From Sinorhizobium alkalisoli (GTDB lineage: Bacteria > Pseudomonadota > Alphaproteobacteria > Rhizobiales > Rhizobiaceae), in contig NZ_CP034910.1 of the NCBI RefSeq assembly GCF_008932245.1, positions 620,001 to 684,000 on the forward strand: a stretch of 64,000 nucleotides of DNA, written 5' to 3'. Under the pieces are notes generated by a model. The model was not told where the DNA came from. It made no database searches and was given only the letters and a program-made list of their open reading frames with translations. Made by a program: the position numbers and the translations under genes. Of the stretch, positions 28,013 through 56,895 are shown in pieces; the stretch's first letter is position 1; each line of letters begins with the position of its first letter.

Positions 28013-29068
28013 GTGAACGGCCCGATCGTGGAGCGGAAAACGAATCTCAAGGATGTGGCGCGGGAGGCGGGGGTTTCCCTCAGCACGGCATCGCATGCAC
28101 TCAATGGAACCGCGCCGCTGACCGTCGAAGTGCGTGAGCGGGTGCTCGAATCCGCCCGCCGGCTCGGCTATCTCGAAATCAGGCGGAAGAAGGCGACGAT
28201 CGCGACATTGCAAGTCGTCCTGCTGGCGCTCACCAGCGACGCCGCGCCGCAGAGCGACGTCAACATGGTGAGCTGGACGATCCTCAATGGCCTGCGGCGG
28301 GAATGCGAAAGGCGCGGAATTCGCATCGTGCCCTTCGTCAGCGCGACCATGCGGCTCGATGCAGCGCAAGTGCGCGATGCGGCCGAGAGCGAAAAGGCCG
28401 ACGGCATCGTAATCCTGAACGACGACAGGCCGGAACTCATCCGGGCTCTTTCCGCACTCAACCGCTCAATGGTGATTCTCAATGGCGAGGACCCTTCGAT
28501 GCTGGTCGATACGGTGACGGTCGAAAACCGCTTCGGCGCCCGGCTCGGCACCGAGCATCTTCTTTCGCTCGGACACCGTCGCATCCTGCATCTTACCTGG
28601 CAGGGGCGCACCACCATCCGCCGGCGCTATGACGGCTATGTCGATGCCCATCTGGTCACGGGCCTGCCGGTGCCGGAAAACATGGTCGTGGTCGCCGAAA
28701 GCTACGAACCGCGTCATGGAAAACAGGTGATGCGGGCTCTTCTGAAGGCGGATCGCAGCCTGCGTGGCGCGACCGCGATCTTCTGTGCTGCCGACAATCT
28801 GGCGCTGGGCTGCCTGGAGGCGTTCGCCGAGGCCGGCATCAGCGTGCCGGAGGAGGTCTCGGTGCTCGGCTTCGACGATATCGTGCCGGGCGAATTCAGC
28901 ACGCCGGCCTTGAGCACCATCCAGATGCCGGCCGACCGGCTCGGCGCCGCCGCGCTTTCACTGCTGGAGCAGCGTCTGATCGCCAACGACCCGCTGCGCC
29001 CGGCCCATCGGCTCGAGCTCGGATGCCGGCTGATCCTGAGAGGCAGCGTCGCGCCGCCCCCGAGATAG
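28013..29068 (+). CDS. LacI family regulator (locus A)
   Basis: A 351-residue repressor: HTH NLKDVAREAGVSLSTASHAL, hinge helix VRERVLESARRLGY, then a periplasmic-binding-protein-like ligand domain with the FCAADNLALGCLEAF and VLGFDD hallmarks. The start is GTG 28013; GTG 28028 is an alternative. Its stop lies 3 bases from the convergent end of the sugar transporter operon, so it is the likely repressor of locus A, acting at the palindromes around 37215-37372. Confidence 0.9.
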   Translation: MNGPIVERKTNLKDVAREAGVSLSTASHALNGTAPLTVEVRERVLESARRLGYLEIRRKKATIATLQVVLLALTSDAAPQSDVNMVSWTILNGLRRECERRGIRIVPFVSATMRLDAAQVRDAAESEKADGIVILNDDRPELIRALSALNRSMVILNGEDPSMLVDTVTVENRFGARLGTEHLLSLGHRRILHLTWQGRTTIRRRYDGYVDAHLVTGLPVPENMVVVAESYEPRHGKQVMRALLKADRSLRGATAIFCAADNLALGCLEAFAEAGISVPEEVSVLGFDDIVPGEFSTPALSTIQMPADRLGAAALSLLEQRLIANDPLRPAHRLELGCRLILRGSVAPPPR

Positions 29069-29071
29069 TTA

Positions 29072-30130
29072 TTACTTCATGCCGGTTCCGGCGATTCCCG
29101 TAGTGATGTAGCGCTGCAGGAACAGGAACACGATCGTCACCGGGACGAGACTGAGGAAGGTCATGGCAAGGATATAGTGCCATTGCACCGAGAACTCGCC
29201 CTGGAACGCATTGAGGCCGACCTGAAGGGTGAAGTTCTCGCGGCTGCTGAGCACGATCAAAGGCCAGAGGAAGTCGTTCCACCGCCAGAGCACGGAGAAG
29301 ATTGCCAGCACCGCGAGCGCAGGCGCGGTCAGCGGCAGGATAATGCGCCAGAAGATGCGAAACTCGCTGGCCGCATCCACCCGCGCCGCCTCGATCAGCT
29401 CGTCGGGGATCGTCAGCATATATTGCCGGAGCAGGAACACGCCGGTCGGCGTCGCCACGGTCGGGATGATGACGCCCCAGAGATTGTCGACGAGGCCGAC
29501 CCCGACGACGACGAGATAGGCCGGCACCATGACGACGGTGAGCGGGATCATCAAGGTCGAGATGATCAGCACGAAGATCGCCTTCTCGCCGCGGAAGCGG
29601 TACTTGGAGAGTGCGAATGCCGCAAGCGCGTTGACGATCAAGGTCAGGATCGTCGCGACCAAGGTGACGAAGACCGAATTCTTCAGGAAGGTCAGGAAGC
29701 TGAAGCGGGTCAGCGGATCCGTGTAGTTCTGCGTTGCGACCGTCAGCCGCTGGACCGGCGAAATGCTCTTAGTGTCGACGCTGACGGCCTTGGCGGGGTT
29801 GTCGGGATCGACCAGTTGCGCCTTGAGTCCGATGCGGCGGACCATCGCCATTTCGCGGGTTTCGCCGTCGATCGTCGCAGTCCAGAGGCTTAACGGCTTG
29901 TCGTAACCCCGAACCTCCACCAGCACCGTCGCGACGGGCAGCAAGGTCGGCGGAAAGCGGGTGATCTCCGCCTCCGGTTTCAGCGAAGACAGGCCCGCCC
30001 AGGCGACGGGAACGAGAACGGCGAGCGTGCCGCCGATCAGCCACAGCCAGGAGAGGACATCGGTGATGTCGATCCGGCCGGGGCGGCGGGTGCGGGTCAG
30101 GAAGCCGATGGCGTTGAAGGTGCCGTGCAT
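29072..30130 (-). CDS. Sugar ABC transporter permease, MalG type (locus A)
   Basis: A 352-residue carbohydrate-uptake-type permease, last gene of the minus-strand operon. The EAA loop reads IEAARVDAASEFRIFWRIILP. Between the first and second membrane spans is an extra periplasmic domain of about 70 residues (from VRGYDKPLSLWTATIDG to VATQNYTDPL), absent from short MalG-type proteins and shared with the locus B permease at 57912. The C-terminus RYITTGIAGTGMK is also shared. ATG 30130 lies 2 bases after the upstream stop. Confidence 0.92.
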   Translation of the reverse strand: MHGTFNAIGFLTRTRRPGRIDITDVLSWLWLIGGTLAVLVPVAWAGLSSLKPEAEITRFPPTLLPVATVLVEVRGYDKPLSLWTATIDGETREMAMVRRIGLKAQLVDPDNPAKAVSVDTKSISPVQRLTVATQNYTDPLTRFSFLTFLKNSVFVTLVATILTLIVNALAAFALSKYRFRGEKAIFVLIISTLMIPLTVVMVPAYLVVVGVGLVDNLWGVIIPTVATPTGVFLLRQYMLTIPDELIEAARVDAASEFRIFWRIILPLTAPALAVLAIFSVLWRWNDFLWPLIVLSSRENFTLQVGLNAFQGEFSVQWHYILAMTFLSLVPVTIVFLFLQRYITTGIAGTGMK

Positions 30131-30132
30131 GA

Positions 30133-31122
30133 TCAGGACTCCACCTTGCGGCTCAGGCGCAGTTGCCCGAGGGTCAGGATGAGAAGAACCAGCCCCATGA
30201 GGACGGAGGCGGCGGACGCGAGCCCGAAGAGCCTCAAATCCCCGGCAAAGGCCATCTGGTAGATATACTGGACGAGGAAGGTGTTGGCCGTGCCCGGACC
30301 GCCGCCATTGGTCAGCACCCATGCCTCGTCGAAGATCTGCACCGAGCGGATCATCAGGAGGATCAGTACGACCAGCAGGTTCGGCCCGAGCAACGGCAGG
30401 GTGATCCGGAACAGGGTGCGGGTCGGCGAGGCGGCGTCGATCGCCGCCGCCTCGTAAAGATCCTTCGGGATCGCCTGCAGACCGGCGAGCAGGATCAGCG
30501 TGTAGAAGCCCATGTGGAACCAGACGGAGACCACGACGACGAAGAAGCGCGACCAGCCGACATCGAGAAGGAAGATTTCCGGCGGCACGCCGAGCATCTG
30601 GAGGAAGGCGTTCAGCAGGCCGTTGCGGTCGAGAAACCATTTCCAGATCAGACCGATGACGACCGGCGACAGAAGCACCGGGTAGAAGAACATGGCCCGG
30701 AAGAAGCCGCGCGCGGAGATCGCGCGATTGAGGATCAGTGCGGTAACCAGCGCGACGAGCAGCGTGGCGACGACATTGAAGCCGACGAACCAGAGCGTGT
30801 TCCAGATCGCCGTCCAGAAGAGCGATTCCTCGCAGCTTCCCGGCGCGAGATAATCGGCGCAGGAGAGAAGCTTGCGGAAATTATCGAGCCCGACAAAGGG
30901 GCGGTTGGAGATAAGGAGATCGGTGCCGCCGGTGAAGGCATAGCCGATGGCGATGGCGATCGGCAGGAAGGTGAAGATGCCGAAGAGCACGAGGTTCGGC
31001 GCAAGGAAGACATAGGGCATCCGCCGCTTGCCGATCAGCCGCTCGACGGCGTTGATCGGCGCTTCCACCACGGCCATGGCACCGTCGAGCGCCCGGTCCG
31101 CAAGTCCTGCCGGCCCGGCCAT
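30133..31122 (-). CDS. Sugar ABC transporter permease, MalF/UgpA type (locus A)
   Basis: A 329-residue permease with about six spans and the EAA loop KDLYEAAAIDAASPTRTLFR. The periplasmic loop after the first span has two cysteines in CADYLAPGSCEESLFW, matched in the locus B permease by CGSYIDPGSCAEDTFW. GGGAGG precedes ATG 31122, one base after the ATPase stop. Partner of the MalG-type gene downstream. Confidence 0.93.
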   Translation of the reverse strand: MAGPAGLADRALDGAMAVVEAPINAVERLIGKRRMPYVFLAPNLVLFGIFTFLPIAIAIGYAFTGGTDLLISNRPFVGLDNFRKLLSCADYLAPGSCEESLFWTAIWNTLWFVGFNVVATLLVALVTALILNRAISARGFFRAMFFYPVLLSPVVIGLIWKWFLDRNGLLNAFLQMLGVPPEIFLLDVGWSRFFVVVVSVWFHMGFYTLILLAGLQAIPKDLYEAAAIDAASPTRTLFRITLPLLGPNLLVVLILLMIRSVQIFDEAWVLTNGGGPGTANTFLVQYIYQMAFAGDLRLFGLASAASVLMGLVLLILTLGQLRLSRKVES

Positions 31123-31123
31123 A

Positions 31124-32221
31124 TCAGGTCCTCCCGCGGCGGCGGGCGAGAGCCAATTCGCTCGCCGGGTCGAAGACATGCAGGCGCTGCTGCTCCGGCA
31201 TGATCTTGAGAATGCTGCCTGGCGCAGGCGCGAAATGGCCGGGCTGATGGATGATCACCGGCTCCGACTGTCCCTGAAGATTGCCGTAGACATAGGTCTC
31301 GGTGCCGAGGCTCTCGTGATACTGCACCTCGAAGGGCAAGCCTTCGTCGGAGAGCATGAAATGCGCCGGGCGGATACCGGCCACCACCTCCTGTCCGGCG
31401 GAAACCGCGCCCGGATCGGCATCGCTCGCAAGCAGGGCCGGATGGCCGACGTCGACGAGCACGCGGCAGTCGTCGCTGACGACGGCACGGCCTTTCAAAA
31501 TGTTCATGCGTGGCGAGCCGAGGAAGCTGGCGACGAAGAGGTTGCGCGGATGATCGAAGAGCTCGAGCGGCGTGCCGACCTGTTCGACGCGACCAGCCCG
31601 GAGCACGACGATCTTGTCGGCCATGGTCATCGCCTCGACCTGATCGTGGGTGACATAGATCATCGTCGTCTTCATCTGGCGATGCAGCCTGGTGATCTCG
31701 GCCCGCGTCTGGACGCGCAACGCCGCGTCGAGGTTCGAAAGCGGCTCGTCGAAGAGGAAGATCGCCGGTTCGCGCACGATCGCCCGACCGATCGCCACGC
31801 GCTGGCGCTGGCCGCCGGAGAGTTGCCGCGGCTTGCGGTCGAGATAGGGCTCGATCGCCAGCATCCGCGCAGCCTCCGCGATCCGCGCCTCGATCTCGTC
31901 CCGCTTGAACTTGAGGTTTTCGAGGCCGAAGGCGAGGTTCTTGCGCACGCTCATATGCGGGTAGAGCGCGTAGGATTGGAAGACCATGGCGATCTTGCGC
32001 TCGGCCGGCGACAGCGCGGCGACATCGCGCCCGCCGATCGCGATCCCGCCGGAGGTGATGTCCTCGAGCCCGGCGATGATGCGGAGCAGCGTGGACTTGC
32101 CGCAACCGGATGGGCCGACGAAGACGACAAAGTCACCATCCTCGACGTCAAGGTTCACGTCGTTGAGCGCGGCAACCGAACCGAACGATTTGTTAAGGTT
32201 GGAAAGTTTGAGATCTCCCAT
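31124..32221 (-). CDS. Sugar ABC transporter ATPase, UgpC/MsmK type (locus A)
   Basis: A 365-residue cytoplasmic ATPase. Walker [10 protein letters not shown] is at 36-44, the signature is [14 protein letters not shown], Walker B ends FDEPLSNLD, and the H-loop is [13 protein letters not shown]-terminal TOBE/OB regulatory region follows from about residue 240 (VAGIRPAHF). It energises the two permeases that follow it. Confidence 0.94.
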
Positions 32222-32234
32222 CGCCCTGCTCCCA

Positions 32235-33566
32235 TCAGGTCAAATCTTCGATGATATCCGTCGGGTTCCAGCCCTCCGGCAGTCGCGTCGGACGCGTGAC
32301 CGCCACTTGGTGAGCGGAAAAGCCGCGCACGCCCTTGAGGTATATTGCCGGCACGCCGCCGGGATAGTCGCAAAGTCCGACGACCTTGCCGTCGGCGCCG
32401 CGCGTCCAGGCATTCGGCCGCCCCTCCGCTTCCACGCGCGGGGCGATATCCGCGAATGTTGGCCTGAGATCGAAGCTTCGCCCCGTGCCGAGCGGCCCCG
32501 GCCCTTGTGCCAGCGTGATGCCGCGAAGCGCGACGTTGTGAATGCCAGCCTTCGAGGTGGAGACGAGATTGATCGCACCTTCCATTCGGCCGCCGATCTC
32601 CTCGACGAGCAAATTCTCGACCGCACCGGCCCTCTGTTCCGGCCGCCTGTCGACCACCGTCACGGTCAGCGCTTCGCCGGAGCCCCAGAAGCCGTCCGGC
32701 GTCTCGCGGCAATCGACATCAATCCGCGAGAAGCGGATGTTGCGCATGTGGCCGCCGTCGCGGGAGAAAAGGCCAAGTCCGCGGTTGGACCGGACGACCT
32801 TGCAATCCTCGAAGACGACATTGGTGAAGTCGCCGAAGGATTCCGTCCCGAGCTTGAGCGCGCAACTGAGGCTCGAAACGGTCGAGCGGCGGACGATGAC
32901 ATTCTCGCAGGTGCCGATCGCCTTTGCGTCCGGCCCGGCGCTGGTCTTGAGGCAGATGCCGTCGTCGGCGGTCGATATCGTGCAATCCTCGACCAACACG
33001 CGACGGCAGGCATCGAGCACCAGGCCGTCGGTGTTCGGCAGGCGCCGGTCATTGGCAATCGAGACATTGCGGATGGTAGCATCCTCGCAGTCCACGAGGT
33101 GCAGGGTCCACATCGGCGAGCCGGTCACGTGAAAGCCGTCGAGCAGAACGTTGAGGCAGCCTTCGAGGACGACGACGCGCGGGCGGAACTCCGCCGGAAC
33201 GAAGGTGCCGACCGTCGCATCATCGCCGATGATGAAATGCTCGCCGCCCGCCTCGATCCTGCCGGGCCCGGTGATCCCGATGTTCTCCGCATCGCGGGCG
33301 ACGATCATGCCGCGGTTCGATTTCTCCGCGATGACGCGGACCGTCGTGGCGCGATAGGCCTCATAGTCCGGGATCGGCCGGAGCAGGGCGCCCTCCGCGA
33401 GGTGCAGTTCGACGCCGCTCTTCAGGGTCAGCCCACCCGCCACATGCTCGCCGGCGACAAGCGTGACGCGACCGCCATGCGCAGACGCCACGTCGATCGC
33501 CTCCTGAATAGCGGCCGTGGCGTCGCGGCCCGTCGCCTCAATGCGGATGTGCTGCGGGCCCGCCAT
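32235..33566 (-). CDS. GH28-family glycoside hydrolase (polygalacturonase-like), cytoplasmic
   Basis: A 443-residue right-handed beta-helix protein with two of the GH28 catalytic motifs: NTDG at 178-181 and the paired aspartates in TADDGICLK (Asp201, Asp202). The third motif of classical polygalacturonases, G-H-G, is replaced by [10 protein letters not shown], as seen in non-canonical GH28 branches. There is no signal peptide, so it should act on imported oligosaccharides, probably as an exo-enzyme on galacturonate- or rhamnogalacturonan-derived chains. Its ATG overlaps the GH105 stop by one base. Confidence 0.82.
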
Positions 33567-34675
33567 CAGGTCGTGCCGCCCTTGAGAAGCACGTCGATCA
33601 GCAAGAGCATCGTCAGCGCTTGTCCGTACGGCGTCGGCAGGTTGGGGATGCGGCGATAGAAATCGAGGTCGTGGCCCATCGGCGTTCCGTCCGAGACGCC
33701 GTGGACGACGCCCTCCTGGTCGATCTGACGCAACACCGCCATCAGTGCCAGATCGGCATGGACCCGATCCGCCTCGGGGAGAATGCCGGCCTCGATGCCG
33801 CGCAGGATGCCATAGGCGATCCCCGCCGTGGCGGAGGTCTCCAGTGGCGAGGTCGGATCATTGACGAGGGTGTGGAACATGCCGTCGTCGCGCTGGTGGC
33901 GCTTCAGCGAGCTGACCTGACTCTTGAGGACATTCGAGAGGAAGCGCTTGTCCTTCGAGGAAAGCGACGGCACGAGCTCGAAGAACTCGGGGATCGCCAC
34001 CGTGATCCATGCATTGCCGCGGGCCCAGAAGGCCCTGGCGAAGTTGTGGCGGCCGTTGAAAGTCCAGCCGTGATACCAAAGGCCGGTGATGGGATCGGAA
34101 AGATAGCGGGCATGGACCAGAAATTGGTAGACCGCCTCATCGATCCAGTCCCGGCGGTTCGAGATCACGCCGGCCCGGCCAAGAAAGAGGCCGGCCATGA
34201 ACAGCGTATCGTCCCACAGCTCGCCGTCGTTAAGACGCTCCTTTACCACATGCTGGAAGCCGCCATCCTCGGTCTTCGGCAGCTGATGCACGAGCCAGTC
34301 GGCCCAGTCCTCGACCAGGGCGCGGAAATCCGGCCGGTCGACATGCTCGGTCAGGATGGCAAGCGCCAGCATCGGCGCCGTGCTGTTGATTTGTCGCGCC
34401 GGCAGCCCGCGCTGGATCTGCCAGGCATACCAGGCGACGAGTTCATCGAGCGCCCTGCGGTCACCGGTGGCGAGCGCTCGGCGCAGGAAACCATAGAGGC
34501 CGACGCCGACCTCCCAGTCCCATTCGTCGAACTGGATGCCGCTGGGCTGATCCGCGCCGACAAGGCCTTCCTTTATCCCCTTCAGGCGGCTGAACGCGGC
34601 CGCCACCTTGTCGATCGTGATCTTGAGCGACGCTCGCTCGATGGAGATCTGGTTCATCTGCATGCTTTCACTCAT
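33566..34675 (-). CDS. GH105 unsaturated rhamnogalacturonyl/glucuronyl hydrolase (YteR-like)
   Basis: A 369-residue (alpha/alpha)6-barrel enzyme that hydrates and releases the terminal 4,5-unsaturated uronate left by polysaccharide lyases. The catalytic region is LWDDTLFM (aspartates at 155-156), with YHGWTFNGRHNFARAFWARGNAW at 201 on (as YHGWTFNGRHNF and WARGNAW) and the closing MGHDLDFY. No signal peptide, so it is cytoplasmic. ATGA overlap with the 840-residue gene upstream and TGATG overlap with GH28 downstream imply tight coupling. The paralogue in locus B is at 51011. Confidence 0.9.
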   Translation of the reverse strand: MSESMQMNQISIERASLKITIDKVAAAFSRLKGIKEGLVGADQPSGIQFDEWDWEVGVGLYGFLRRALATGDRRALDELVAWYAWQIQRGLPARQINSTAPMLALAILTEHVDRPDFRALVEDWADWLVHQLPKTEDGGFQHVVKERLNDGELWDDTLFMAGLFLGRAGVISNRRDWIDEAVYQFLVHARYLSDPITGLWYHGWTFNGRHNFARAFWARGNAWITVAIPEFFELVPSLSSKDKRFLSNVLKSQVSSLKRHQRDDGMFHTLVNDPTSPLETSATAGIAYGILRGIEAGILPEADRVHADLALMAVLRQIDQEGVVHGVSDGTPMGHDLDFYRRIPNLPTPYGQALTMLLLIDVLLKGGTT

Positions 34676-37194
34676 GAATAGAAGAGAGGCGCCGGATCCC
34701 TGCCGGGAGCGGCACTGTCGAAAGTGATTTCCGGTCTCGGTTGCGTGTGATCGAATGTCATCGGCTGCCCGCCCACCGAGAACGTGCCCTCGTAGGCGAG
34801 GCGCAATTCCGGTCGATCGGGTGGCGTCACCGAGAGCATCAGTCGATCGGCGTCGAAGTCGACGGCGGTCGCGATGATCCGCTCGCGGAAGCGCTCGAAA
34901 TCGGCTGGATCGCCGCAGCTGACTGCGGCGATCCAGCCGGAACGTCGTCCTTCCGAGCGGATCTCCCGTCCGGCGGTCGCGCCCTTCTCCATCATTTCCA
35001 GGCCGTTGGTGGCGTGAAGGGCGGCGAAGCCGGCACCGGAGCGAACGAGCAGCCATTTGTCTTCGATCAGCACCTCGTCGAGGCCGTCCCGACCGAGATA
35101 AGCATGTGTCCAGCCGTTGCGATGATCTTGCGTATCGAAGATCATCAGTGCGAGATCCCGATGTTGAGCCACGCGCGGGAGCATGCCACTTCCCGCCCAG
35201 TAGGAGGGGCGCTGCGTGCCCCAGGGATCGTCTTCACCCGGATGGTTCACCCAGAGCCGCGCCATCGGATGCCCCGAGAGGCGGATGTCGATCACATGCT
35301 GCTGATGACCCTTGCGGCCGGTCTTGTGATCGACGACGGTCGAGAGCTGTGCCGACTGGTTCTTGAAGAGGACGAGCTTGCCGGCATCGAGCCCCTGGGC
35401 GTAGCGGGCTTCGATGGCACGGCCGGGTTCGAGCCGTGCAAACCCCTTGAGATGCGCCGGCGGGGCGTAATTCGAACAGCAGAACATCGGCAGCGACGCC
35501 ACGCCCCCGTTCAGCCAGCCCTCTCCAAAGGCGACTTCGGCGAAGGGGGCGAGTTCGGTCAGCGGACCTGCGCGCAATTCCTTGTCATAGGCGCGGCCCT
35601 GGGACCCCGCCGGCACGCCGGCAAGCGTGTGGAGCGCGATCATCTCGAAGACCAGGTCGAGCTGGTGGCTGGCGCGCGCCGCAAGGTCAGGTTCCGCCCA
35701 ATGTTCGAGCGCCATGAGGCCGATGAAGTCGATCGGGTAATAGGCGGCCGAGTTCCACTCGGCGAGCCCATGCGCCTCGACGGCGTCGAACCAGCGGGAG
35801 AGGCGCGCCGTGGCGAGTTCCGCCTGTTGACGCCCGGTCCTGCCCGAGGCCGTGAAGAGGGCGTCCGGCAGGCATTCGCCGGCAAGCAGCTGGCTCACAT
35901 GGAAGCAGAGCACGTGGTTTTCGCTCCAGAACCACATGACGTCGTTGCCGGGCTCGTCTATCCAGTATCGATAGCCGAGCACGGTTTGCCGGATTTTCTC
36001 TGCGATCTCCGGCGCGAGCCGACGGCCGTAGCCACGAAGAAGCCAGAGGAGCGGCACCATGACGAAATCGGAGCAATCCTCGCGCCGGCCGATCGCGTGG
36101 AGCGTTGCCGCGAAGATCCGGTCGATCGTCGGCTTGTCGTCATCGCCCGCAGCCAGCATGGCAAGGGCCCGGCCGATGCGTTCGGCGCCGAAGCGAGCAC
36201 TGTAAGCGAGGGCCGTCCGCTTTCGCACCTCGATTGAGGAAGCCCCCGCACCTGGCGAGGTCTGGCTGAGGAATGCAGCATCGATGACACGGGTGATGGT
36301 GCCCGCGCCCGATCCGATCGTCAGCCGCACCGCATGATAGCCGTCGGGAAGCCCGCGCGTTCCTGGGATCGAAAGACGGGTTTCGTGCGCACCCAGCAAT
36401 ACCTCGGCCCGCGCGAGAACGGCGCTGTCATGGCCATGGCTGACGACCTCGACAAGGACAGGAAGGTCACGGCCGGGCGGGGTGTCGAAGATGACTTCCA
36501 GCGCCTCGTCGACGAAGACGTCTTGGCTCGGACGGACGTCGCGGGCAAGCGCGGCAAGACGGCCGACTTCCTCTTGGTCGAGGGCAATCGGCAGCACGAC
36601 CGTCAGCGACGCCTCGTCCAGGAGTTCGAGTTCGAAGAACCAGATCGTGTCCCGCTCGGCGAGATCTTCCGTATGCAGCAGGATGTCGTTGTCGCCCGCC
36701 TCTAGTGCGAGCGTCAGATCGCATGCGCTTTCGACATTGCGCTGGAACGGCTTGAAGCGGACCTGCTCGGTGCCGTTCACCCAGATGCGCACGCCGCCGC
36801 AGGTGCTGAGCCTGAGGTTCAGCTTCCGCGCTGTCTGACATCGGAACGTGCCCTTGAGCCAGCGGCGGACATGGGTCGGGGTGTGCCAGAAACCGGTGAA
36901 TTCCACGCGGCGGTTTGCGCCCGGCAGGTTCAGGCGGGCCTCCGGCCAATTGCGTTCCGGCTCGATCGCGCGGCCGACCATCTCCGCCCAGAAGGCCTTG
37001 CGGCAGGGCAGGTCCCCGACCTCGACGAAACCGTTGAGGAAGCGATAATCGACGCGATCCTCGGCCGGTGCAGCCACGCCCGGAAAGTCCGCGCGGATAA
37101 GTGCGGACACGATCCAGGCGGTGATCGTCTCGCCCTTTGAAACCCGATAGGTCGGCTCGGACGAGGCCGCGATCGTCGTGGGATTGCTCTCCAT
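34672..37194 (-). CDS. Large cytoplasmic protein of unknown family, probable oligosaccharide-degrading enzyme
   Basis: An 840-residue protein that I cannot place in a named family. From sequence texture: an N-terminal beta-sandwich with a sugar-binding-like strand TCGGVRIWVNG at 131-141, a second beta region to about 310, a helical core 325-560 with invariant-looking aromatic/acidic blocks (WFWSENH at 421-427, EWNSAAYYPID at 479-489, QGRAYDKEL at 532-540), and a C-terminal beta-rich part with WVNHPGE at 648-654 and RPSYWAGSGMLPR at 662-674. This layout recalls polysaccharide lyases with a toroid plus beta-sandwich. No signal peptide. The same blocks occur in the 827-residue paralogue at 52941. 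It is first in the operon with GH105 and GH28. Confidence 0.7.
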   Translation of the reverse strand: MESNPTTIAASSEPTYRVSKGETITAWIVSALIRADFPGVAAPAEDRVDYRFLNGFVEVGDLPCRKAFWAEMVGRAIEPERNWPEARLNLPGANRRVEFTGFWHTPTHVRRWLKGTFRCQTARKLNLRLSTCGGVRIWVNGTEQVRFKPFQRNVESACDLTLALEAGDNDILLHTEDLAERDTIWFFELELLDEASLTVVLPIALDQEEVGRLAALARDVRPSQDVFVDEALEVIFDTPPGRDLPVLVEVVSHGHDSAVLARAEVLLGAHETRLSIPGTRGLPDGYHAVRLTIGSGAGTITRVIDAAFLSQTSPGAGASSIEVRKRTALAYSARFGAERIGRALAMLAAGDDDKPTIDRIFAATLHAIGRREDCSDFVMVPLLWLLRGYGRRLAPEIAEKIRQTVLGYRYWIDEPGNDVMWFWSENHVLCFHVSQLLAGECLPDALFTASGRTGRQQAELATARLSRWFDAVEAHGLAEWNSAAYYPIDFIGLMALEHWAEPDLAARASHQLDLVFEMIALHTLAGVPAGSQGRAYDKELRAGPLTELAPFAEVAFGEGWLNGGVASLPMFCCSNYAPPAHLKGFARLEPGRAIEARYAQGLDAGKLVLFKNQSAQLSTVVDHKTGRKGHQQHVIDIRLSGHPMARLWVNHPGEDDPWGTQRPSYWAGSGMLPRVAQHRDLALMIFDTQDHRNGWTHAYLGRDGLDEVLIEDKWLLVRSGAGFAALHATNGLEMMEKGATAGREIRSEGRRSGWIAAVSCGDPADFERFRERIIATAVDFDADRLMLSVTPPDRPELRLAYEGTFSVGGQPMTFDHTQPRPEITFDSAAPGRDPAPLFYS

Positions 37195-37214: not shown

Positions 37215-37232
37215 AATGAAAACTTTTTCATT
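37215..37232 (+). promoter_or_regulatory. Palindromic LacI-type operator 1 (locus A)
   Basis: AATGAAAA-CT-TTTTCATT is a perfect 8+2+8 palindrome, 21 bases from the start codon of the minus-strand operon and 153 from the plus-strand binding-protein gene. Together with the related site at 37355 it flanks the divergent promoter region. Confidence 0.65.
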
Positions 37233-37354
37233 ACTGTCTCGAGCTGTAGCGCGACGTCGCTCGAGCGGTGTCGCAAAATAAACGGCTTGACCTTTGCTCT
37301 GTCAAGTCGCAAAAAAGAGAAAACCGACTACGGATGAGGAATTCCGGCTCGGCC

Positions 37355-37372
37355 AATGAAATTATTTTCACG
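37355..37372 (+). promoter_or_regulatory. Palindromic LacI-type operator 2 (locus A)
   Basis: AATGAAAT-TA-TTTTCACG is an imperfect copy of the palindrome at 37215, placed directly before the GGAGGAGG site of the binding-protein gene. Two sites 140 bases apart would allow repression loops over the divergent promoters. Confidence 0.5.
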
Positions 37373-37384
37373 GAGGAGGTGTGT

Positions 37385-38656
37385 ATGTCGAAGCTTTTTT
37401 CGGGTGTAAGTGCCCTGGTATTCCTCGTCGCGGCCGGCGCGGCGCAGGCCGAAACCAAGACGATCACATTCGTGTTCACCGATGACGACCAGGGCTATGT
37501 CGAGCGCATGGCGGAACTCAGCCAGGAGTTCGAGGCCGCCCATCCGGACGTGAAGGTCAACTTCGTTTCGTCCGGATACGATGCCGTGGTCAAGCAATTG
37601 CCGGTGCAGCTTGCCGTCGGCGAGGGCCCCGACGTGGCGAAGATCGCCGATTGGCAGCTCGCGCCCTACTATCTCGACATGCGTCCGTACATGAAGGACC
37701 CGGAGGCGTTCGCCAAACTGCATGGAGGAAGCCTCGACCAACTGCGCCTGCCGGGCATCAACGATCCGAATTCCATAAACGGCTATGTGGCGTCGCAGAC
37801 CCTCAATCTGCCCTTCGTCAACAAGACCCTGTTCGAGCAGGCCGGCGAGCCTCTGCCCGGACCGAAGGCAAGTTTGAAGGAAATCGTCGAAGCCTCGGCA
37901 CGGGTCGCCAAGGCGACGGGCGTGCAGATACCCTTCACCATGGACCGCTCGGGTCATCGCTTCTCGGGTGGGGCCTTCTCCTACGGCGCAACCTATGTGA
38001 AGGACGGCAAGTTCAGCTTCCCGGACGAGGCGGCGAAGAAATATATCGCCGATCTCTACGCCTGGGCCGAGGACGGCAGCTTCCCCAAGGAGATGTGGGG
38101 CGCGGCCGGCGGCTCTCAGTACAAGAACATGGGCGACGAATTCGTCAACGGCAATGTGGTGACCTATCTTGCCGGCAACTGGATGGTGAACCCGTTCCAG
38201 ACCAAAATCGGTGACGGCTTCGACTGGACCGCGATCAATGCGCCCTGCGGCGAAGCCGGCTGCTTCGCCATGCCGGGCGGCACCGCGATCGTCGGCTTCA
38301 AGCGCACCAAGCATCCCGAGGTCGTGGCCGAGTTCATCGAGTTTCTCGGCTCCGAGAAGATCCAGCGCGAGATCGCCGAAAACTACGTCATCCTGACGGG
38401 CGCGGACATCAAGGACCCGCAATACAAGCTTTCGAGCGAAGACGCCAAAGCATCCATGGCGGTCTTCCTCGACAATAAAAAGAATGTGCCGGAGGCCGCG
38501 CGCGAATTCGAGCGCATGAAAGGCGGCACCGCCCTTTACCAGCAGATCGTGCAGCGCATGAGCCAGCTGATCGTCGGCGAATTGTCGCTCGAAGAAACCT
38601 ACAAGGTGCTGGAGGACGACGTCCGCAAGATCAACGAGGCCGTCTCGACGCAGTAG
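37385..38656 (+). CDS. Family 1 sugar-binding protein of ABC transporter (locus A)
   Basis: A 423-residue periplasmic binding protein of the SBP_bac_1 family. A Sec signal peptide ends AGAAQA at residue 22. Family features are SQEFEAAHPDVKVNFV and the LPVQLAVGEGPDVAKI segment. A CGEAGC pair near residue 292 is matched by CGSVNC in the locus B protein at 55503, so a disulfide-bearing subgroup is likely. GGAGGAGG precedes ATG 37385. It is divergent from, and the presumed partner of, the permeases at 29072-31122; its own transcript has no permease. Confidence 0.92.
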   Translation: MSKLFSGVSALVFLVAAGAAQAETKTITFVFTDDDQGYVERMAELSQEFEAAHPDVKVNFVSSGYDAVVKQLPVQLAVGEGPDVAKIADWQLAPYYLDMRPYMKDPEAFAKLHGGSLDQLRLPGINDPNSINGYVASQTLNLPFVNKTLFEQAGEPLPGPKASLKEIVEASARVAKATGVQIPFTMDRSGHRFSGGAFSYGATYVKDGKFSFPDEAAKKYIADLYAWAEDGSFPKEMWGAAGGSQYKNMGDEFVNGNVVTYLAGNWMVNPFQTKIGDGFDWTAINAPCGEAGCFAMPGGTAIVGFKRTKHPEVVAEFIEFLGSEKIQREIAENYVILTGADIKDPQYKLSSEDAKASMAVFLDNKKNVPEAAREFERMKGGTALYQQIVQRMSQLIVGELSLEETYKVLEDDVRKINEAVSTQ

Positions 38657-46335: not shown

Positions 46336-46340
46336 GAACG

Positions 46341-49844: not shown

Positions 49845-50894
49845 TCAGACACGAGCCGGCCCCGTGGACGAGCGTTCGACCAGATGGCAGGCGAGTTCCA
49901 GCCGGCGGGGCGGAAACGGCAGGTTGGAAAGGCTGTCGCGCAGGAGGTCGAGGGCAGCCGAGCCGATCTCGCGCATCGGAATGTGCATCGTCGTCAGCGG
50001 CGGATTGAGGAAGGCGGCCTGCGGCAGGTCGTCCATGCCCATTACCGAAACATCGCGTGGCACGTTGTAGCCCATTTGCTGGATGCCAAGCATGGCGCCG
50101 ACAGCGAGGCTGTCGCCGGCTGCGAGGACGGCAGTGAAATCCAGCCCGCGCTTCTCGATTCGCGAAACAATGGCCTGCGTCGCGAGTTCCGGCAGCCAGT
50201 CATCAACCGGGACGACAAGGTCCGGGTCGGCCGGAAGACCGCGGTGGAGCAGTGCATCCCGCCAGCCCTCATAGCGACGCTCGATGGTGCGGCGGCCGGG
50301 CCGCATGAGGAAGAGGATGCGCTCGTGACCGAGGCCCATCAAGTGATCGGCGGCAAGCCGCGCGCTCGAGCGGTTGCATGGTGTGACGCTCGACAGCCGC
50401 ATGAACGGGTCGTCGCCGTTGAGCAGCACGACCGGCTTCTCGAAGTCGCGTGTCGCGGCCAGGAGCGCCTCGTCGTCGATGGTGAGGAAAAGGAGTCCGG
50501 CGATCTCCGGGTCGCCCTTTGCCTCCTTGAGCAGGGTGAGTTCCTCGGTCTTGTCGGCAATGGGCCGGGTAATGATCTCGAGACCGAGGGCCTGCGCCCG
50601 CTCCTTCAACCCGTCCAGCACGTAGAGTGTGAACTGGTTGCGCACGTAGTCGAGCATCGCGGCGCTTGAGGCGGCGAGAATGACCTTCTGGCCCGCGACA
50701 GCGGTCGGAATGACGTAGTTCGCGATTCTCGCTGCCTCGAGCACCTGCTGGCGGATGTCCGGACGCACGCCCTTTTCTCCGGCCAGGGCTCGCGAGGCGG
50801 TACTCAACGAAACGCCGCAGGCCGCGGCGATATCCTCCAGCCGCACGCGGCGGCTCTTCCTGCCCCGTTTACCCGGCAGCGGTCTTACAGCCAT
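49845..50894 (-). CDS. LacI family regulator (locus B)
   Basis: A 349-residue repressor with HTH RLEDIAAACGVSLSTASRAL, hinge RQQVLEAARIANY and a ligand domain with AAGDSLAVGAMLGIQ and VMGMDD. ATG 50894 has GGAG 8 bases upstream. It is divergent from the GH105/KduI operon, and the palindromes at 50918-50973 lie in the shared 116-base gap, so it probably represses both that operon and itself. Confidence 0.9.
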   Translation of the reverse strand: MAVRPLPGKRGRKSRRVRLEDIAAACGVSLSTASRALAGEKGVRPDIRQQVLEAARIANYVIPTAVAGQKVILAASSAAMLDYVRNQFTLYVLDGLKERAQALGLEIITRPIADKTEELTLLKEAKGDPEIAGLLFLTIDDEALLAATRDFEKPVVLLNGDDPFMRLSSVTPCNRSSARLAADHLMGLGHERILFLMRPGRRTIERRYEGWRDALLHRGLPADPDLVVPVDDWLPELATQAIVSRIEKRGLDFTAVLAAGDSLAVGAMLGIQQMGYNVPRDVSVMGMDDLPQAAFLNPPLTTMHIPMREIGSAALDLLRDSLSNLPFPPRRLELACHLVERSSTGPARV

Positions 50895-50917
50895 CGCACC
50901 ATCTCCAATACCGCCAT

Positions 50918-50973
50918 CATGAGAAAAATTTTCAGATTGCGCAAGAAAAAACATCGTGCATTATTTTCTCATG
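50918..50973 (+). promoter_or_regulatory. Paired operator half-sites between LacI and the GH105/KduI operon
   Basis: CATGAGAAAA at 50918-50927 is repeated inverted as TTTTCTCATG at 50964-50973. The left arm also forms an inner palindrome GAAAA-A-TTTTC at 50923-50933. The motif ATGAGAAAAATTTTCA resembles the locus A operators ATGAAAACTTTTTCAT and ATGAAATTATTTTCA. Confidence 0.6.
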
Positions 50974-51010: not shown

Positions 51011-52111
51011 ATGGCCCCGGACGGCCGCGATATTCGGGAGGGCCTCGACCGCCTTGTAACCGGCATGACCGGCCTCAAGCATGACGGCCGCTTCCACGAG
51101 CCGAACCTCGACGGCACGGCCGGCGACTACATCAGCTTCGATAGCTGGGAATGGCCGCAGGGCGTCGGACTTTACGGCCTCATCCGGCTGTGGCTCTTCA
51201 CCGAGCGCGACGACCTGCGCCAGCTGGTGGAAGAATGGTATTCCGACCGGCTCGTCGCCGGGCTTCCCGAGCTCAACGTCAACACGACGGCGCCGATGCT
51301 CGGCCTGTCGGTTCTTTGGGAACGGACGCGCGACCCCCGCTGGCAGCCGGTGCTCGACAATTGGGCGAGCCGCGTGATTTCGCAAATGGGTCGCACCCAG
51401 GAAGGCGGGTTCGAGCATCACGTCTCCGACAAGGTCAATGACAACGAGCTCTGGGACGATACGCTCTACATGGTGGCGCTGTTCCTCGCCTCCTATGGCC
51501 AGGCAAGCGGTCGCCAGGAACTGGTCGATGAGGCGTCGCGGCAGTTCCTCGTTCATGCCCGCTATCTCGCCGACACCCGCACGGGCCTGTGGTTCCATGG
51601 CTGGACCTTCGATGGCCGGCACAATTTTGCGGAAGCCCGTTGGGCGCGCGGCAACGCCTGGATCACGGCCGGCATACTCGACCTCTTCGATCTGGCGGAG
51701 ATAGCAAAGCCGGTGAAGGACTACCTGCTGGGCGTGCTCACGGCCCAGGTCGATGCCTTGCTGCCGCTTCAGACGACGTCCGGCGCTTGGCGCACCCTGC
51801 TTGACGATGCCACCTCCTATGAGGAGATCTCCGCCACGGCAGGCATCGGCTACGGCCTCCTGAAGGGGTATCGTCTCGGCCTCGGTACGCCGGCATGGCG
51901 AAGCGCCGGACTGAAGGCGCTGCAGGCGGTAATGAGCAACATCGACGAGACCGGCACGGTGCTCAATGTCTCCTATGGCACCCGCATGGGCCACGACCTG
52001 CAATTCTACAAGGACATTCCAATCCAACCGACGGGTTACGGACAGGCCCTGGCGATCCTGTGCCTTTCCGAGGCCCTGCAGCACGTCGGAGCAGAGGGAC
52101 AATCGGCATGA
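51011..52111 (+). CDS. GH105 unsaturated uronyl hydrolase (locus B)
   Basis: A 366-residue paralogue of the locus A enzyme, with LWDDTLYM (aspartates 149-150), FHGWTFDGRHNFAEARWARG at 196-215 and MGHDLQFY near the end. No signal peptide. GGGAGGAATGCC precedes the ATG. It releases a 4,5-unsaturated uronate that rearranges to 5-keto-4-deoxyuronate, the substrate of KduI, whose start overlaps its stop (ATGA). Confidence 0.92.
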   Translation: MAPDGRDIREGLDRLVTGMTGLKHDGRFHEPNLDGTAGDYISFDSWEWPQGVGLYGLIRLWLFTERDDLRQLVEEWYSDRLVAGLPELNVNTTAPMLGLSVLWERTRDPRWQPVLDNWASRVISQMGRTQEGGFEHHVSDKVNDNELWDDTLYMVALFLASYGQASGRQELVDEASRQFLVHARYLADTRTGLWFHGWTFDGRHNFAEARWARGNAWITAGILDLFDLAEIAKPVKDYLLGVLTAQVDALLPLQTTSGAWRTLLDDATSYEEISATAGIGYGLLKGYRLGLGTPAWRSAGLKALQAVMSNIDETGTVLNVSYGTRMGHDLQFYKDIPIQPTGYGQALAILCLSEALQHVGAEGQSA

Positions 52112-52944
52112 CGATGAAGGTTTTGTATGGAGCGTCCCCCGAGGATGTCAAAGGCTATGATACGGAGCGCCTTCGCAGCGCATTCCTTATCGCCGATCTC
52201 TTTGCGGCGGATGCGGTCAACTTCTCCTACACCCACGTCGATCGCCTGATCCTCGGCGGCGCGATGCCGGTCGAAAAGAGCCTGACCTTCGGATCGGGCG
52301 CGGAGATCGGCACGCCCTATCTGCTCTCTGCGCGCGAAATGGGCATTGCCAATCTCGGCGGCAAGGGGACCGTGACCATCGACGGCAAGGCTTTCACGCT
52401 GCAAAACCGCGATATTCTCTACGTCGGCCGTGGTGCGAAGGAAATCACTGTAGCGAGCGCTTCCGCGGAGGCCCCTGCGCGGTTCTACATGAACTCCGTT
52501 CCTGCCGGGGCGGATTTCCCGCATCGCCTGATAGCCAAGGCCGAAGCAAAGCCGCTCGACCTTGGCGAGGCGCGCCGGTCGAACAAGCGCCGGCTGGCGA
52601 TGTATATTCATCCCGAGGTGGCACCGTCTTGCCTGCTTCTCATGGGCATCACCGACCTTGCCGAGGGCAGCGTCTGGAACACCATGCCCCCGCATGTCCA
52701 TGAACGGCGGATGGAGGCCTATTGCTACTTCGACATGGCCGACACGGACCGGGTGATTCACCTGATGGGCAAACCGGAGGAGACGCGCCATCTCCTCATC
52801 GCAAACGGCGATGCCGTGCTTTCGCCGGCCTGGTCGATCCACATGGGTGCGGGCACCGGACCTTACGCCTTCGTCTGGGGCATGACCGGCGAAAACCAGG
52901 AATATAACGACGTGGCCCCGGTGGCTCTGGCGGAACTGAAATGA
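52108..52944 (+). CDS. kduI: 5-keto-4-deoxyuronate isomerase KduI
   Basis: A 278-residue cupin-fold isomerase, the same length as E. coli KduI. It converts 5-keto-4-deoxyuronate to 2,5-diketo-3-deoxygluconate in pectin breakdown. The zinc ligands fall at the E. coli positions: His196 and His198 (PPHVHERRMEAY), Glu203 and His245 (WSIHMG). It is translationally coupled to GH105 before it and to the 827-residue gene after it by ATGA overlaps. Confidence 0.96.
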   Translation: MTMKVLYGASPEDVKGYDTERLRSAFLIADLFAADAVNFSYTHVDRLILGGAMPVEKSLTFGSGAEIGTPYLLSAREMGIANLGGKGTVTIDGKAFTLQNRDILYVGRGAKEITVASASAEAPARFYMNSVPAGADFPHRLIAKAEAKPLDLGEARRSNKRRLAMYIHPEVAPSCLLLMGITDLAEGSVWNTMPPHVHERRMEAYCYFDMADTDRVIHLMGKPEETRHLLIANGDAVLSPAWSIHMGAGTGPYAFVWGMTGENQEYNDVAPVALAELK

Positions 52945-55424
52945 CCACAACGACATCACATATCAAAAAGGTGCTGAAGCCGGGCGAGGCGGTCCGCTAC
53001 TGGCAGCTCGGTGCTGTCGCTGAAGAACGTTTCGACGTGCCGGACGCCCCGATGAAAGGGGAAATGGACCCGTTCTTCTTCCTGACGAAGCACAAGAACT
53101 TCATTCCGCACGAATATCCCTGCCGCACGATCTTTGCCGAACGCCACCGCGGAAACCGACCCGACATACGTGGCGCATTCCATGCCGCGCGGTGGTGGTT
53201 GCCCTTCGGTTCGCCGCGGCTTGACCTCTCGGGCTTCTGGTTCCGTCCGACGCGTCTTGCCAACTGGGCGCGCACCTTCATCGAAGCGGACGCGGCCGGA
53301 GAGGCGAAGGTTCGCCTCGGCACCTGCGGCGGCGCTGTCCTGTGGCTGAACGGCTCCGAAATCGGCTGGATGGCGCCCTACAGCCGCAATCTCGAGGCAA
53401 AAGCGGAATTCGACCTTCCCTTGAACGCGGGCCTCAACGAGATCACCCTGTTCTTCGACGATCTTGCCGAGCGCGACGCCCGCTATTTCATCCAGCTCGA
53501 CTATCTCTCGGGCCCGAGCGCCGCCGTCGCGGTGCCGGTTCCCTGCACCGGGGAGGCTGCGGATGCGGTCGAAGCCGCGCTCGACGGCATGCATTTCGAC
53601 CGGCCCGCCTATTTCGACGGCGACATGACGCTGATCTTCGCCGCCCCCTTACCGATGGACGTCAAGGTCGACGTCGCGGTCGAGGGCGACTTCATGTCGA
53701 CGGAACGTTTCGATTACGGCTTCGTGCTCAAGGCGGGCGAAACCCGCCTCGTCGTCGGCCCCTCGCGCGACATGCCAGCCGACTTCCGCCATTTCCGGAT
53801 GACGCTCGACGCGGAAGGTTTCGTCGCCTCCCGCTCGATTGGCGTCGAAATCTGCGATTCCGTCCGCCAAGGCAACGCACCCGCGTCACTTGCGGCACGG
53901 ATCGACGAGACACTCGACGAGATTTCTGAGTTCTCCGAGCGCGACACGGTGCGCGCCTTCGCGCGGCTGGCAAGCGGGCGCGGCGGTGCGGACACGGACG
54001 CGATGATCGAGGAAATCCTGCCCTCGATCGAGGACTGCCACGACTGCGCCGACTTCTCCCTCGTGCCGCTCATCTGGTCGCGCACCGCCTGGGGCACGGA
54101 GATTGGCGCGGCGACCCGCACGCGCATAGACCGCGCCATCCTCGGCTTCCGCTACTGGATGGACGAGCCGGGCAACGACGTGCAGTGGTATTTCTCCGAG
54201 AACCACGCGCTGCTCTTCCACACCTCGGCCTATCTCGCCGGCAACCTGCTGACGGACAAGACCTTCCTGCGTTCCGGTCGCAAGGGCGCCGAGCAGCGCG
54301 CCGTCGGTGCCGCCCGCGTGCGGGCCTGGCTTGACCATTTCGAAGCCTGGGAAATGGCGGAGTTCAATTCCGCCCCTTATTTCCCGATCGACCTCAAGGG
54401 TCTGACGGCGCTCGCCGCGCTGGCGCCTGATGCCGACATTGCCGAGCGCGCCAAGAAAGGCATCGTCCGGCTCTGCGAGATCGTCGCGCGCTGCGCCCAT
54501 CACGGCATGGTGACGGCGGCGCAGGGGCGCTCCTATGAGCACACGCTCTGCGCCGGCCGGTCGCTCGAGCTTTCGGGCGTTGCCCGCCTGCTCTGGGGCA
54601 AGGGCTGGTACGGCCGGCGCGTGCACGCGCTGCCGCAGCTTGCCGTCTGCCTGCGCGACCACGGCCTGCTGATTCCGGAAGCTTTCGAGGCCGTCGCGAA
54701 CCATCGCGCCGAGGCGCATCAGGAATGGTGCTTCTCTCAAGGCGAAAACCGCTTTGCCGCGCTCTATCACTACAAGAGCCGCGCCTTCGCCATGGGCTCG
54801 GCCGCCCACTACCGCTGGAACGAGTGGGGATACCAGGAGACCGTGCTGCATCTTCGCATCGGCGAGCGGCCGGAGGCCGCCGTCTGGATCAACCACCCCG
54901 GCGAGACGATCCAGTTCGGCTACGGCCGTCCGTCCTATTGGGGCGGTTGTGGCTCGCTGCCGCGCGCCCATCAATATCGCGGTCTGGCGGTGCTGGACTT
55001 CACGACGGTCGACGAACAGGCCGACTTCACCCATGCCTGGTTCCCGGTCGCGGAGTTCGACGAAAGCAGCGTCAAAGGCAATCTCGCTCTTGCCCGCAGC
55101 GGGTCCGGTGCCGTCCTTCTCAGGGGCAGCGCCCCGTTCGAGAGCGTGACCGTAGGCCCGTCCGCCAATGTCGAACTGCGCCAACGGGGCCGCAGGACCC
55201 GCTGGATCGTCCGCGTCTGCGAATCATCAAGCCTTGCGGAGGTCGAGGCACGCTTCGCGGCTCTTTCCGTGGAAGAAGAGGCCGACGGAACGCTTGTCGT
55301 CAACGATCCCGATTATGGGCCGGTGCGGTTCCGAGCGGATGGCTCGGCAGAAGCGGAAGGACGCATCATCGTACCGAAGGCATTCACCGTCGCCGGCGAG
55401 GCGACGATGCTATCGGCAGCATAG
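52941..55424 (+). CDS. Large cytoplasmic protein of unknown family, paralogue of 34672-37194
   Basis: An 827-residue protein colinear with the 840-residue protein of locus A. Shared blocks are GTCGGAVLWLNG at 127-138, FRYWMDEPGNDVQWYFSENH at 403-422, EFNSAPYFPID at 474-484, QGRSYEHTL, VWINHPGE and GRPSYWGGCGSLPR. The N-terminal segment and the second beta region are much less conserved than the helical core. No signal peptide. Sits between KduI and the binding protein, overlapping KduI by four bases. Both copies neighbour GH105, which argues for a step producing or consuming GH105 substrates. Confidence 0.7.
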   Translation: MTTTTSHIKKVLKPGEAVRYWQLGAVAEERFDVPDAPMKGEMDPFFFLTKHKNFIPHEYPCRTIFAERHRGNRPDIRGAFHAARWWLPFGSPRLDLSGFWFRPTRLANWARTFIEADAAGEAKVRLGTCGGAVLWLNGSEIGWMAPYSRNLEAKAEFDLPLNAGLNEITLFFDDLAERDARYFIQLDYLSGPSAAVAVPVPCTGEAADAVEAALDGMHFDRPAYFDGDMTLIFAAPLPMDVKVDVAVEGDFMSTERFDYGFVLKAGETRLVVGPSRDMPADFRHFRMTLDAEGFVASRSIGVEICDSVRQGNAPASLAARIDETLDEISEFSERDTVRAFARLASGRGGADTDAMIEEILPSIEDCHDCADFSLVPLIWSRTAWGTEIGAATRTRIDRAILGFRYWMDEPGNDVQWYFSENHALLFHTSAYLAGNLLTDKTFLRSGRKGAEQRAVGAARVRAWLDHFEAWEMAEFNSAPYFPIDLKGLTALAALAPDADIAERAKKGIVRLCEIVARCAHHGMVTAAQGRSYEHTLCAGRSLELSGVARLLWGKGWYGRRVHALPQLAVCLRDHGLLIPEAFEAVANHRAEAHQEWCFSQGENRFAALYHYKSRAFAMGSAAHYRWNEWGYQETVLHLRIGERPEAAVWINHPGETIQFGYGRPSYWGGCGSLPRAHQYRGLAVLDFTTVDEQADFTHAWFPVAEFDESSVKGNLALARSGSGAVLLRGSAPFESVTVGPSANVELRQRGRRTRWIVRVCESSSLAEVEARFAALSVEEEADGTLVVNDPDYGPVRFRADGSAEAEGRIIVPKAFTVAGEATMLSAA

Positions 55425-55502
55425 CCGGCATGAGCCGCCTGTATGGGGCAGGCGGTTTTGAACGCAGCGGGCGGGAGGCCCGCTTCAGGGAGGAGAACGA
55501 TC

Positions 55503-56771: not shown

Positions 56772-56855
56772 CCAGGCCGATCCGCGAGGCGAACCAACCT
56801 CGGACATCCGCCGGCGGCATGACGCTGCCGACGGCACCGGGATGCGGTCACGGTC

Positions 56856-56878
56856 GCCCGCCGCCGCTATCGGCGGGC
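56856..56878 (+). terminator. Hairpin between binding-protein and permease genes (locus B)
   Basis: GCCCGCCG (56856-56863) and CGGCGGGC (56871-56878) form an 8-bp stem with a 7-base loop, ending 17 bases before the permease start. No T-run. Same position as the hairpins at 4648 and 44565. Confidence 0.5.
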
Positions 56879-56895
56879 CTGGGAGGGAAACCGAC

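Follow-up and report, generated by a model that had tools for sequence, protein, structure and literature searches.

Glycoside hydrolases (GH) of family GH105 act on unsaturated uronyl ends, and in enterobacteria the cytoplasmic step equivalent to the one discussed here would be filled by two kinds of polysaccharide lyase (PL), the PL22 oligogalacturonide lyase and the intracellular exo-lyases of PL2. Here we describe an 840-residue protein encoded next to a GH105 gene in Sinorhizobium alkalisoli (GCF_008932245.1, contig NZ_CP034910.1, positions 620,001-684,000 of the forward strand; these 64,000 nucleotides (nt) are called the window, and positions refer to it unless another locus is named). 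Its gene occupies 34672..37194 on the minus strand (37194->34672), and we consider it somewhat probable that its product acts in the cytoplasm as a lyase on uronic-acid-containing oligosaccharides, belongs to a family that the searched libraries do not name, and makes the substrates of GH105. Unlike the enterobacterial enzymes it has no Pfam match to PL22 or PL2, and PL22 was not found in the genome.

Several (alpha/alpha)-toroid lyases can be compared with this protein, as far as the accessible portions of two articles describe their residues. In PL15 the His/Tyr/His positions are 311/365/531 in Atu3025, 337/390/555 in BIexoHep and 226/280/446 in VBAly15A, PL39 Dp0100 has His187/Tyr239/His405 and PL17 Alg17C has His202/Tyr258 (PMC12915356, PMC11921355). 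The Tyr of VBAly15A is required, its His226 is not fully so and its His446 is probably a binding residue (PMC11921355). The PL40 enzyme Uly1040, a 97-kDa protein of a toroid plus beta-sheet, has Asn245/Trp246/Tyr305/His485 (PMC12915356).

In a joint alignment of 99 sequences (45 of two rhizobial types and 54 of a wider type) the residues D373, E425, N426, H427, E479, Y485, G533, R534, Y536, Q631, P652 and H697 are kept in every row, and D376 is kept in 96 rows, D413 in 95, R662 in 94 and H651 in 81; copies from Catenovulum and Subdoligranulum retain the whole residue set, H651 too. A His/Asn/Tyr set, which the initial annotation of the window had envisaged, is therefore present as N426, H427 and Y485. 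The distance from H427 to Y485 is 57-58 residues in 99/99 sequences and that from Y485 to H651 is 166 in the 840-residue protein, with a median of 172 and a range of 166-254 among the 81 sequences with H651. Toroid lyases carry Asn/His and Tyr about 52-60 residues apart, and in sequence position N426-H427/Y485 has this arrangement. They also have a His for catalysis or binding on the C-terminal beta domain, for which H651 (81/99) and H697 (99/99) are candidates here. According to the same portions of the literature, PL15 (Atu3025, VBAly15A, BIexoHep) shows 53-54 residues between His and Tyr, compared with 57-58 here, and a further His 165-166 past the Tyr that can be set beside H651; PL15 enzymes also finish oligosaccharides. 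In Atu3025, VBAly15A and Dp0100, where it is His405, the downstream His follows the Tyr after 166 residues, which equals the Y485-H651 distance of the 840-residue protein, and His and Tyr of Alg17C are 56 apart. Uly1040 has the Asn, Tyr and His of the toroid lyases, and its substrate ulvan contains rhamnose and uronate, which recalls a hint from the Thioclava gene context described below. There are also clear differences. The 840-residue family has the motif E-N-H and an extra N-terminal part, no Pfam match and no hhalign signal to a PL15-type pair of the same bacterial family in an insensitive comparison, and the parts of the sources at hand mention no GH105 partner for PL15. PF05426 is unmatched in the 840-residue protein and in 52 relatives, and the gene context is pectin-type and not alginate, which separates the protein from PL17 and PL39. 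Uly1040 is endolytic on polymer with a Tyr-to-base spacing of 180, and in PL40 a Trp (sometimes His) follows the Asn, whereas it is always His in the family. The likeness of residue spacing is thus a lead and not a test of descent.

The link to GH105 was followed within the window and across genomes. The start codon of the GH105-type unsaturated uronyl hydrolase (P0242, 33566..34675, minus strand) overlaps the stop of the 840-residue gene (ATGA); its PF07470 match was seen as part of a longer open reading frame (ORF) scanned. The GH28 gene (32235..33566, minus; PF00295) follows on the same strand and matches the NCBIfam model of polygalacturonase PglB with 701.5 bits at a cut-off of 600, in agreement with the operon proposed at the outset. 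The GH105 enzymes, YteR and others, are partners, and the 840-residue protein itself has no match to PF07470 (GH88/GH105). A full paralogue of 827 residues (52941..55424, plus; 32% identical) lies directly after a second GH105 gene (51011..52111, plus) and the gene of KduI (51895..52944, plus; matched part from residue 74 of the listed ORF), also as first described. For the comparison we took the best 80 of 590 loci, 79 of which were readable (L078 was too short and was dropped). GH105 lies within 400 nt downstream on the same strand in 76/79 and GH28 within 2500 nt in 66/79; GH105 is missing downstream in L085, L086 and L088, and the contig of L086 ends about 500 bases past the gene. Among 14 loci of the paralogue type, 12 have GH105 and KduI within the cluster, and L158 and L166 have neither. 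In addition, three of the 120 homologues that were listed, out of 666, are natural fusions in which a part of the 840-residue type is joined to GH105 with the gene order kept: they have 1189-1201 residues with at most nine between the parts, which are 51-52% and 62-63% identical to the window pair. Both proteins also segregate together in 100 loci, as the first-type protein goes with the first-type GH105 in 79, the paralogue type with the second-type GH105 in 15, no locus is mixed and six have no GH105; these counts ignore shared ancestry, and L173 is a near tie.

Similar gene neighborhoods exist outside the rhizobia. On plasmids of Pseudosulfitobacter and Salipiger (Roseobacter) the family member is clustered with a GH88-family gene, a TRAP transporter, KduD, LacI and KduI, and in these two clusters it is the sole annotated candidate for making the unsaturated substrate. 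The Thioclava cluster combines it with a GH88-family gene, an ATP-binding cassette (ABC) transporter, LacI, KduD, KduI and TRAP, and genes for L-rhamnose uptake and catabolism adjoin. In Catenovulum (Gammaproteobacteria) a GH88-family gene is located directly downstream, together with MFS and AGE epimerase genes, and in Subdoligranulum (Bacillota, L173) the order is SIS, PfkB, solute-binding protein, ROK, family member, GH88-family, GH63-like, an unmatched ORF, GH88-family and MFS. The region past the Subdoligranulum homologue (L173, 10669-13401) holds a GH63/MGH1-like glycosidase and the second GH88-family gene. L086 and L088 have a HAD protein directly upstream.

The ORF starts with ATG, is intact and contains zero internal stops in translation. 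All five blocks quoted in the initial annotation (WFWSENH, EWNSAAYYPID, QGRAYDKEL, WVNHPGE and one more) were recovered in it; the minus strand had not been given there. The protein can be divided into a strand-like region (about 1-320), a helix-like region (about 325-595), which carries E425-N426-H427, E479, Y485, R534 and Y536, and a C-terminal part with Q631, H651 and H697. Hydrophobic periodicity was strand-like in residues 20-320 (equally low in 2/200 shuffles) and helix-like in 325-595 (equally high in 0/200), and it was the same as in shuffles in 600-820; of the suggested beta-sandwich, helical core and beta-rich layout, the first two parts thus gain some support and the third was indistinguishable from shuffles. 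Chou-Fasman averages were too flat to separate the regions. In the joint alignment 43-53% of the rows cover the first ~320 positions and 93-100% cover the rest, which indicates that the helical and C-terminal parts form the family core and that the N-terminal part is optional. This N-terminal part may be PA14-like, because PA14 matches in two homologues fall within residues 104-162. By hydrophobicity, no N-terminal signal-like segment is visible, as had been reported for this protein: its highest 15-residue Kyte-Doolittle mean is 1.36, and the corresponding maxima of the three solute-binding proteins of the window are 2.01-2.17. The GH105 and GH28 proteins of the operon also lack such a stretch, unlike the solute-binding proteins, and therefore we read the chemistry as cytoplasmic.

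Searches of Pfam, NCBIfam and PHROGs gave zero matches for the 840-residue protein, and no sequence relatives were found in the PDB; filing under a named family was therefore rejected, in line with the starting assumption of an unassigned protein. No account of it was found among the titles and abstract beginnings of open-licence papers. Among 52 diverse relatives at E<=0.01, Pfam gave PA14 (PF07691) in four and a pentapeptide model in three, and NCBIfam gave BamB in one. PA14 scored narrowly above the gathering score of 24 in two homologues (P0073, 25.1 bits; P0098, 24.4 bits) and was unmatched in the 840-residue protein itself, and the family profiles gave a PDB match of the PA14 kind, RsgI3. 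Together with nucleoprotein and beta-xylosidase matches, all of them weak, we read the hits of the profiles and relatives as PA14 or chance. The heparinase II/III-type models PF07940, PF05426 and PF16332, which we take to represent toroid PL families, were not found in the protein at E<=1 or in the 52 relatives at E<=0.01, and the family profiles recovered none of the superfamily PDB sequences of toroid lyases. A gum-arabic rhamnose-glucuronate lyase was also considered and rejected; in the accessible part of its description it is a beta-propeller (PMC8377490), and it has zero likeness to the 840-residue protein. The profile-profile check proposed earlier was made with hhalign, using comparison sets labelled by Pfam model and family (L142, L154 and L151-L153 were left out). 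PF16332 occurred in 2/151 genomes and PF05426 in 13/151, too few for good comparison profiles. As a control, a PL17-/PL5-type pair within one Pfam family reached 92-93%, and known cross-family pairs were missed at 0.1-17%; because these superfamily pairs were missed too, the comparison says little either way.

A lyase is favored because GH105 needs unsaturated ends, because the PL22, RGI_lyase and Pectate_lyase_4 models are unmatched in the genome (control genomes were positive; PL3, PL4, PL9, PL10 and PL26 were not searched for), because the Roseobacter clusters contain no other candidate, and because of the conserved residue set. Gene order, overlap, fusions, co-segregation and the strict conservation of the residues other than H651 are observed; the fold, the roles of single residues, beta-elimination and the substrate are what we propose on this basis. 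In this scheme the ABC transporter would import short pectin-type or related uronides, and the helical core and the C-terminal part of the 840-residue protein would form the two sides that grip the sugar. The carboxylate may be held by N426, with H427 and R534/Y536, Y485 may serve as the acid and probably doubles as the base, and a histidine (H427, H651 or H697) could be a second base. Beta-elimination would then cut the chain and leave a 4,5-unsaturated uronyl end, which the GH105 protein, encoded by the next overlapping gene or fused in the same polypeptide, would remove as unsaturated sugar. KduI and KduD would pass the released sugar to central metabolism, and GH28 would trim saturated ends.

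A number of observations weigh against this proposal. H651 is His in only 81/99 sequences and its distance from Y485 varies between 166 and 254; in the available portion of the VBAly15A study the His at this place is taken to bind substrate rather than to serve as base, and the enzyme does not fully depend on the toroid His (PMC11921355). The hhalign probabilities of the family alignments A2, A3 and A4 against heparinase II/III, PL15-, PL17- and PL5-type sets stayed below 1%, in a comparison that with its thin profiles carries little weight in either direction. The counts also include many loci of Rhizobium, Agrobacterium and Sinorhizobium, which do not represent independent cases. GH105 is absent from L088, L158 and L166, the last two of which also lack KduI, and L085 (16689-17534) and L170 (5894-6718) carry, without GH105, a PF01182 gene of the glucosamine-6-phosphate isomerase / 6-phosphogluconolactonase type; L085 additionally carries SIS and Gfo/Idh. 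Around a haloarchaeal homologue, the 25-kb stretch that was read contains no gene annotated as GH88. Moreover, unsaturated oligosaccharides could originate outside the cell, and the GH28 of the operon is a hydrolytic route in itself. The invariant D373, E425 and E479 (99/99) would suit a hydrolase too, and a helical-core glycoside hydrolase of, say, the rhamnosidase or uronidase kind might use E425, E479 or D373 as catalytic pair and act before or after GH105 on the imported oligosaccharide. GH28 shows that hydrolysis is already used by the operon, L-rhamnose genes adjoin the Thioclava copy, and the homologue P0026 was named 'Alpha-L-rhamnosidase six-hairpin glycosidase' by its source. We nevertheless regard such a hydrolase as rather unlikely: it would not produce the unsaturated end that GH105 needs, the invariant Asn-His...Tyr with its spacing of 57-58 fits toroid lyases better, and hydrolase families were unmatched among the 52 relatives at E<=0.01. 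The initial annotation had left lyase and hydrolase side by side as producers of GH105 substrates; the tie to GH105 is borne out by adjacency, fusion and co-segregation, and the choice stays two-way with the lyase favored.

How a lyase of this kind should be filed is a related matter. We see an even chance that the protein is a very divergent heparinase II/III-type (alpha/alpha)-toroid lyase (of the PL12/15/17/21/39/40 kind), new at the family and not at the fold level, which overlaps with our proposal and differs in filing only. The Asn-His...Tyr spacing and the downstream His at 166 as in PL15 and PL39, the succession of helix-like core and C-terminal part, and the source name 'Heparinase II/III-like protein' of P0007 and P0051 are in line with this, whereas the failure of the three heparinase-type models in the 52 relatives, the missing hhalign signal (insensitive as it is) and the superfamily PDB sequences that the profiles did not find speak against it. 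It seems quite improbable that the protein is no uronide enzyme at all and instead binds sugars or processes amino sugars as a frequent companion of GH105 clusters. PA14 at the N-terminus of 4/52 relatives, the SIS, PfkB, ROK or PF01182 neighbors in L085, L170 and L173, and the oxidoreductases and isomerases around the Haladaptatus copy would agree with such a role; the GH105 fusions, the unmixed co-segregation with the GH105 types and a group of invariant polar residues such as catalytic sites typically have argue against it. Since parts of the wider family adjoin possible amino-sugar genes, a pectin substrate is weaker than first implied, and the wide family may also serve amino-sugar-containing uronides.

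Many rhizobia and agrobacteria have this operon, and the possible source of GH105 substrate is a gene labelled 'hypothetical protein'. If the protein is a lyase, a missing cytoplasmic step in the use of pectin fragments by root bacteria would be filled, and through the family many hundreds of proteins in the databases would gain an annotation, including some of gut Bacillota and haloarchaea. A fused GH105 polypeptide would in this case be expected to convert a saturated uronide to keto-deoxy uronate. More tentatively, and with a less than even chance, we propose a large carbohydrate-enzyme clan with the signature E-N-H...E...Y...G-R-x-Y...Q...H that extends from Rhizobiaceae to haloarchaea, gut Bacillota and Chloroflexota and has toroid-lyase chemistry on intracellular uronide oligosaccharides, the fused form both making and removing the unsaturated end.

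The protein family is more than a chance grouping, as 666 homologues at E<=1e-10 were obtained among 8000 scored candidates. The 120 of them that were listed range from 88% to 48% identity, come mostly from Rhizobiaceae and other Alphaproteobacteria and are nearly all named 'hypothetical protein'; the paralogue has a large homologue set of its own. By sequence, the family is wider than the initial annotation saw and includes unannotated homologues in haloarchaea, Bacillota and Chloroflexota. A plasmid scan gave 200 records including the archaeon Haladaptatus, whose 661-residue homologue has 1086 relatives at E<=1e-5 (8000 candidates scored). Among the 120 relatives listed here are Chloroflexota, Armatimonadota, Christensenellales, Hungatella and Eisenbergiella, and 118 have 537-696 residues (one has 404 and one 791). 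Of the 199 plasmid records recovered by a reverse search, 123 belong to Rhizobium and 12 to Sinorhizobium. When taxa were scanned with the A2 profile, members turned up in at least 3/200 and at least 1/385 genomes, which are lower bounds with at most four and two candidates scored per genome. In a scan of the bacterial family with the 840-residue protein, 14/101 genomes had any member and five of those the 840-residue type, so the protein is common among the fetched rhizobia but not in genomes sampled evenly across that family. The region around a haloarchaeal plasmid homologue (L135, 11815-13800) holds a heparinase II/III family protein, acetyltransferases, an aminotransferase and several Gfo/Idh/MocA oxidoreductases.

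The operon continues on the minus strand with an ABC transporter ATPase of the UgpC/MalK type (31124..32221, by library matches) and two ABC permeases, one at 30133..31179, whose real start is probably further in than listed, and one at 29072..30640, with its domain at residues 341-514 only and a real start further in. A convergent gene for a LacI-family regulator (28013..29068, plus) is located at the operon end, and a solute-binding protein gene (37268..38656, plus; likely real start 37385) diverges from the 840-residue gene. We assume that the copy of the 840-residue gene in strain C58 probably lies two tags beyond atu4559/Atu4560. As far as the accessible parts of these studies go, PglB is Atu4560 of C58 and, according to a review that cites Mathews et al. 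(2019) for this, takes part in polygalacturonic acid degradation (PMC6683767), and atu4559, a maltose-type transport gene, is up-regulated in tea co-culture (PMC9138961).

Between the divergent solute-binding protein gene and the 840-residue gene, a sequence search revealed two palindromes of the type ATGAAAANNTTTTCAT, which are operator candidates at 37215..37232 and, 140 bp away, at 37355..37372 (no strand assigned). With up to two mismatches, 58 of 76 readable loci have two sites 139-149 bp apart, seven have one and 11 have none, so that a palindrome is present upstream in 65/76, compared with 0/368 control windows. The 11 loci without palindrome are all among the 13 loci without GH28. Exact sites, with four free central bases, occur within 500 nt upstream in 47/76 loci and nowhere else in the 1.67 Mb of these loci; in the whole genome the exact site is found at 37215-37232 only, and one mismatch adds nine places, including the second palindrome. 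A LacI-type repressor that loops the DNA is the likely reader of the twin palindromes.

In the second cluster, the paralogue is followed by genes for a solute-binding protein (55443..56771, plus), two ABC permeases (56842-57915 and 57912-58964, plus) and KduD (59910..60797, plus; matched part from residue 48 of the listed ORF), and another LacI-family regulator is encoded at 49845..50954 on the minus strand. Both GH105 proteins of the window match PDB 3qwt, 3pmm and 4xuv and YteR (1nc5). NCBIfam NF051900 labels both PF07470 proteins 'beta-galactosidase BglB' with scores over its cut-off, a name that looks doubtful, as the nearest solved structures are GH105. A GH2-type protein is encoded at 46047-48602, next to another set of solute-binding protein, permeases and ATPase, and GalA, GalB and beta-glucuronidase models match it, every one below its cut-off.

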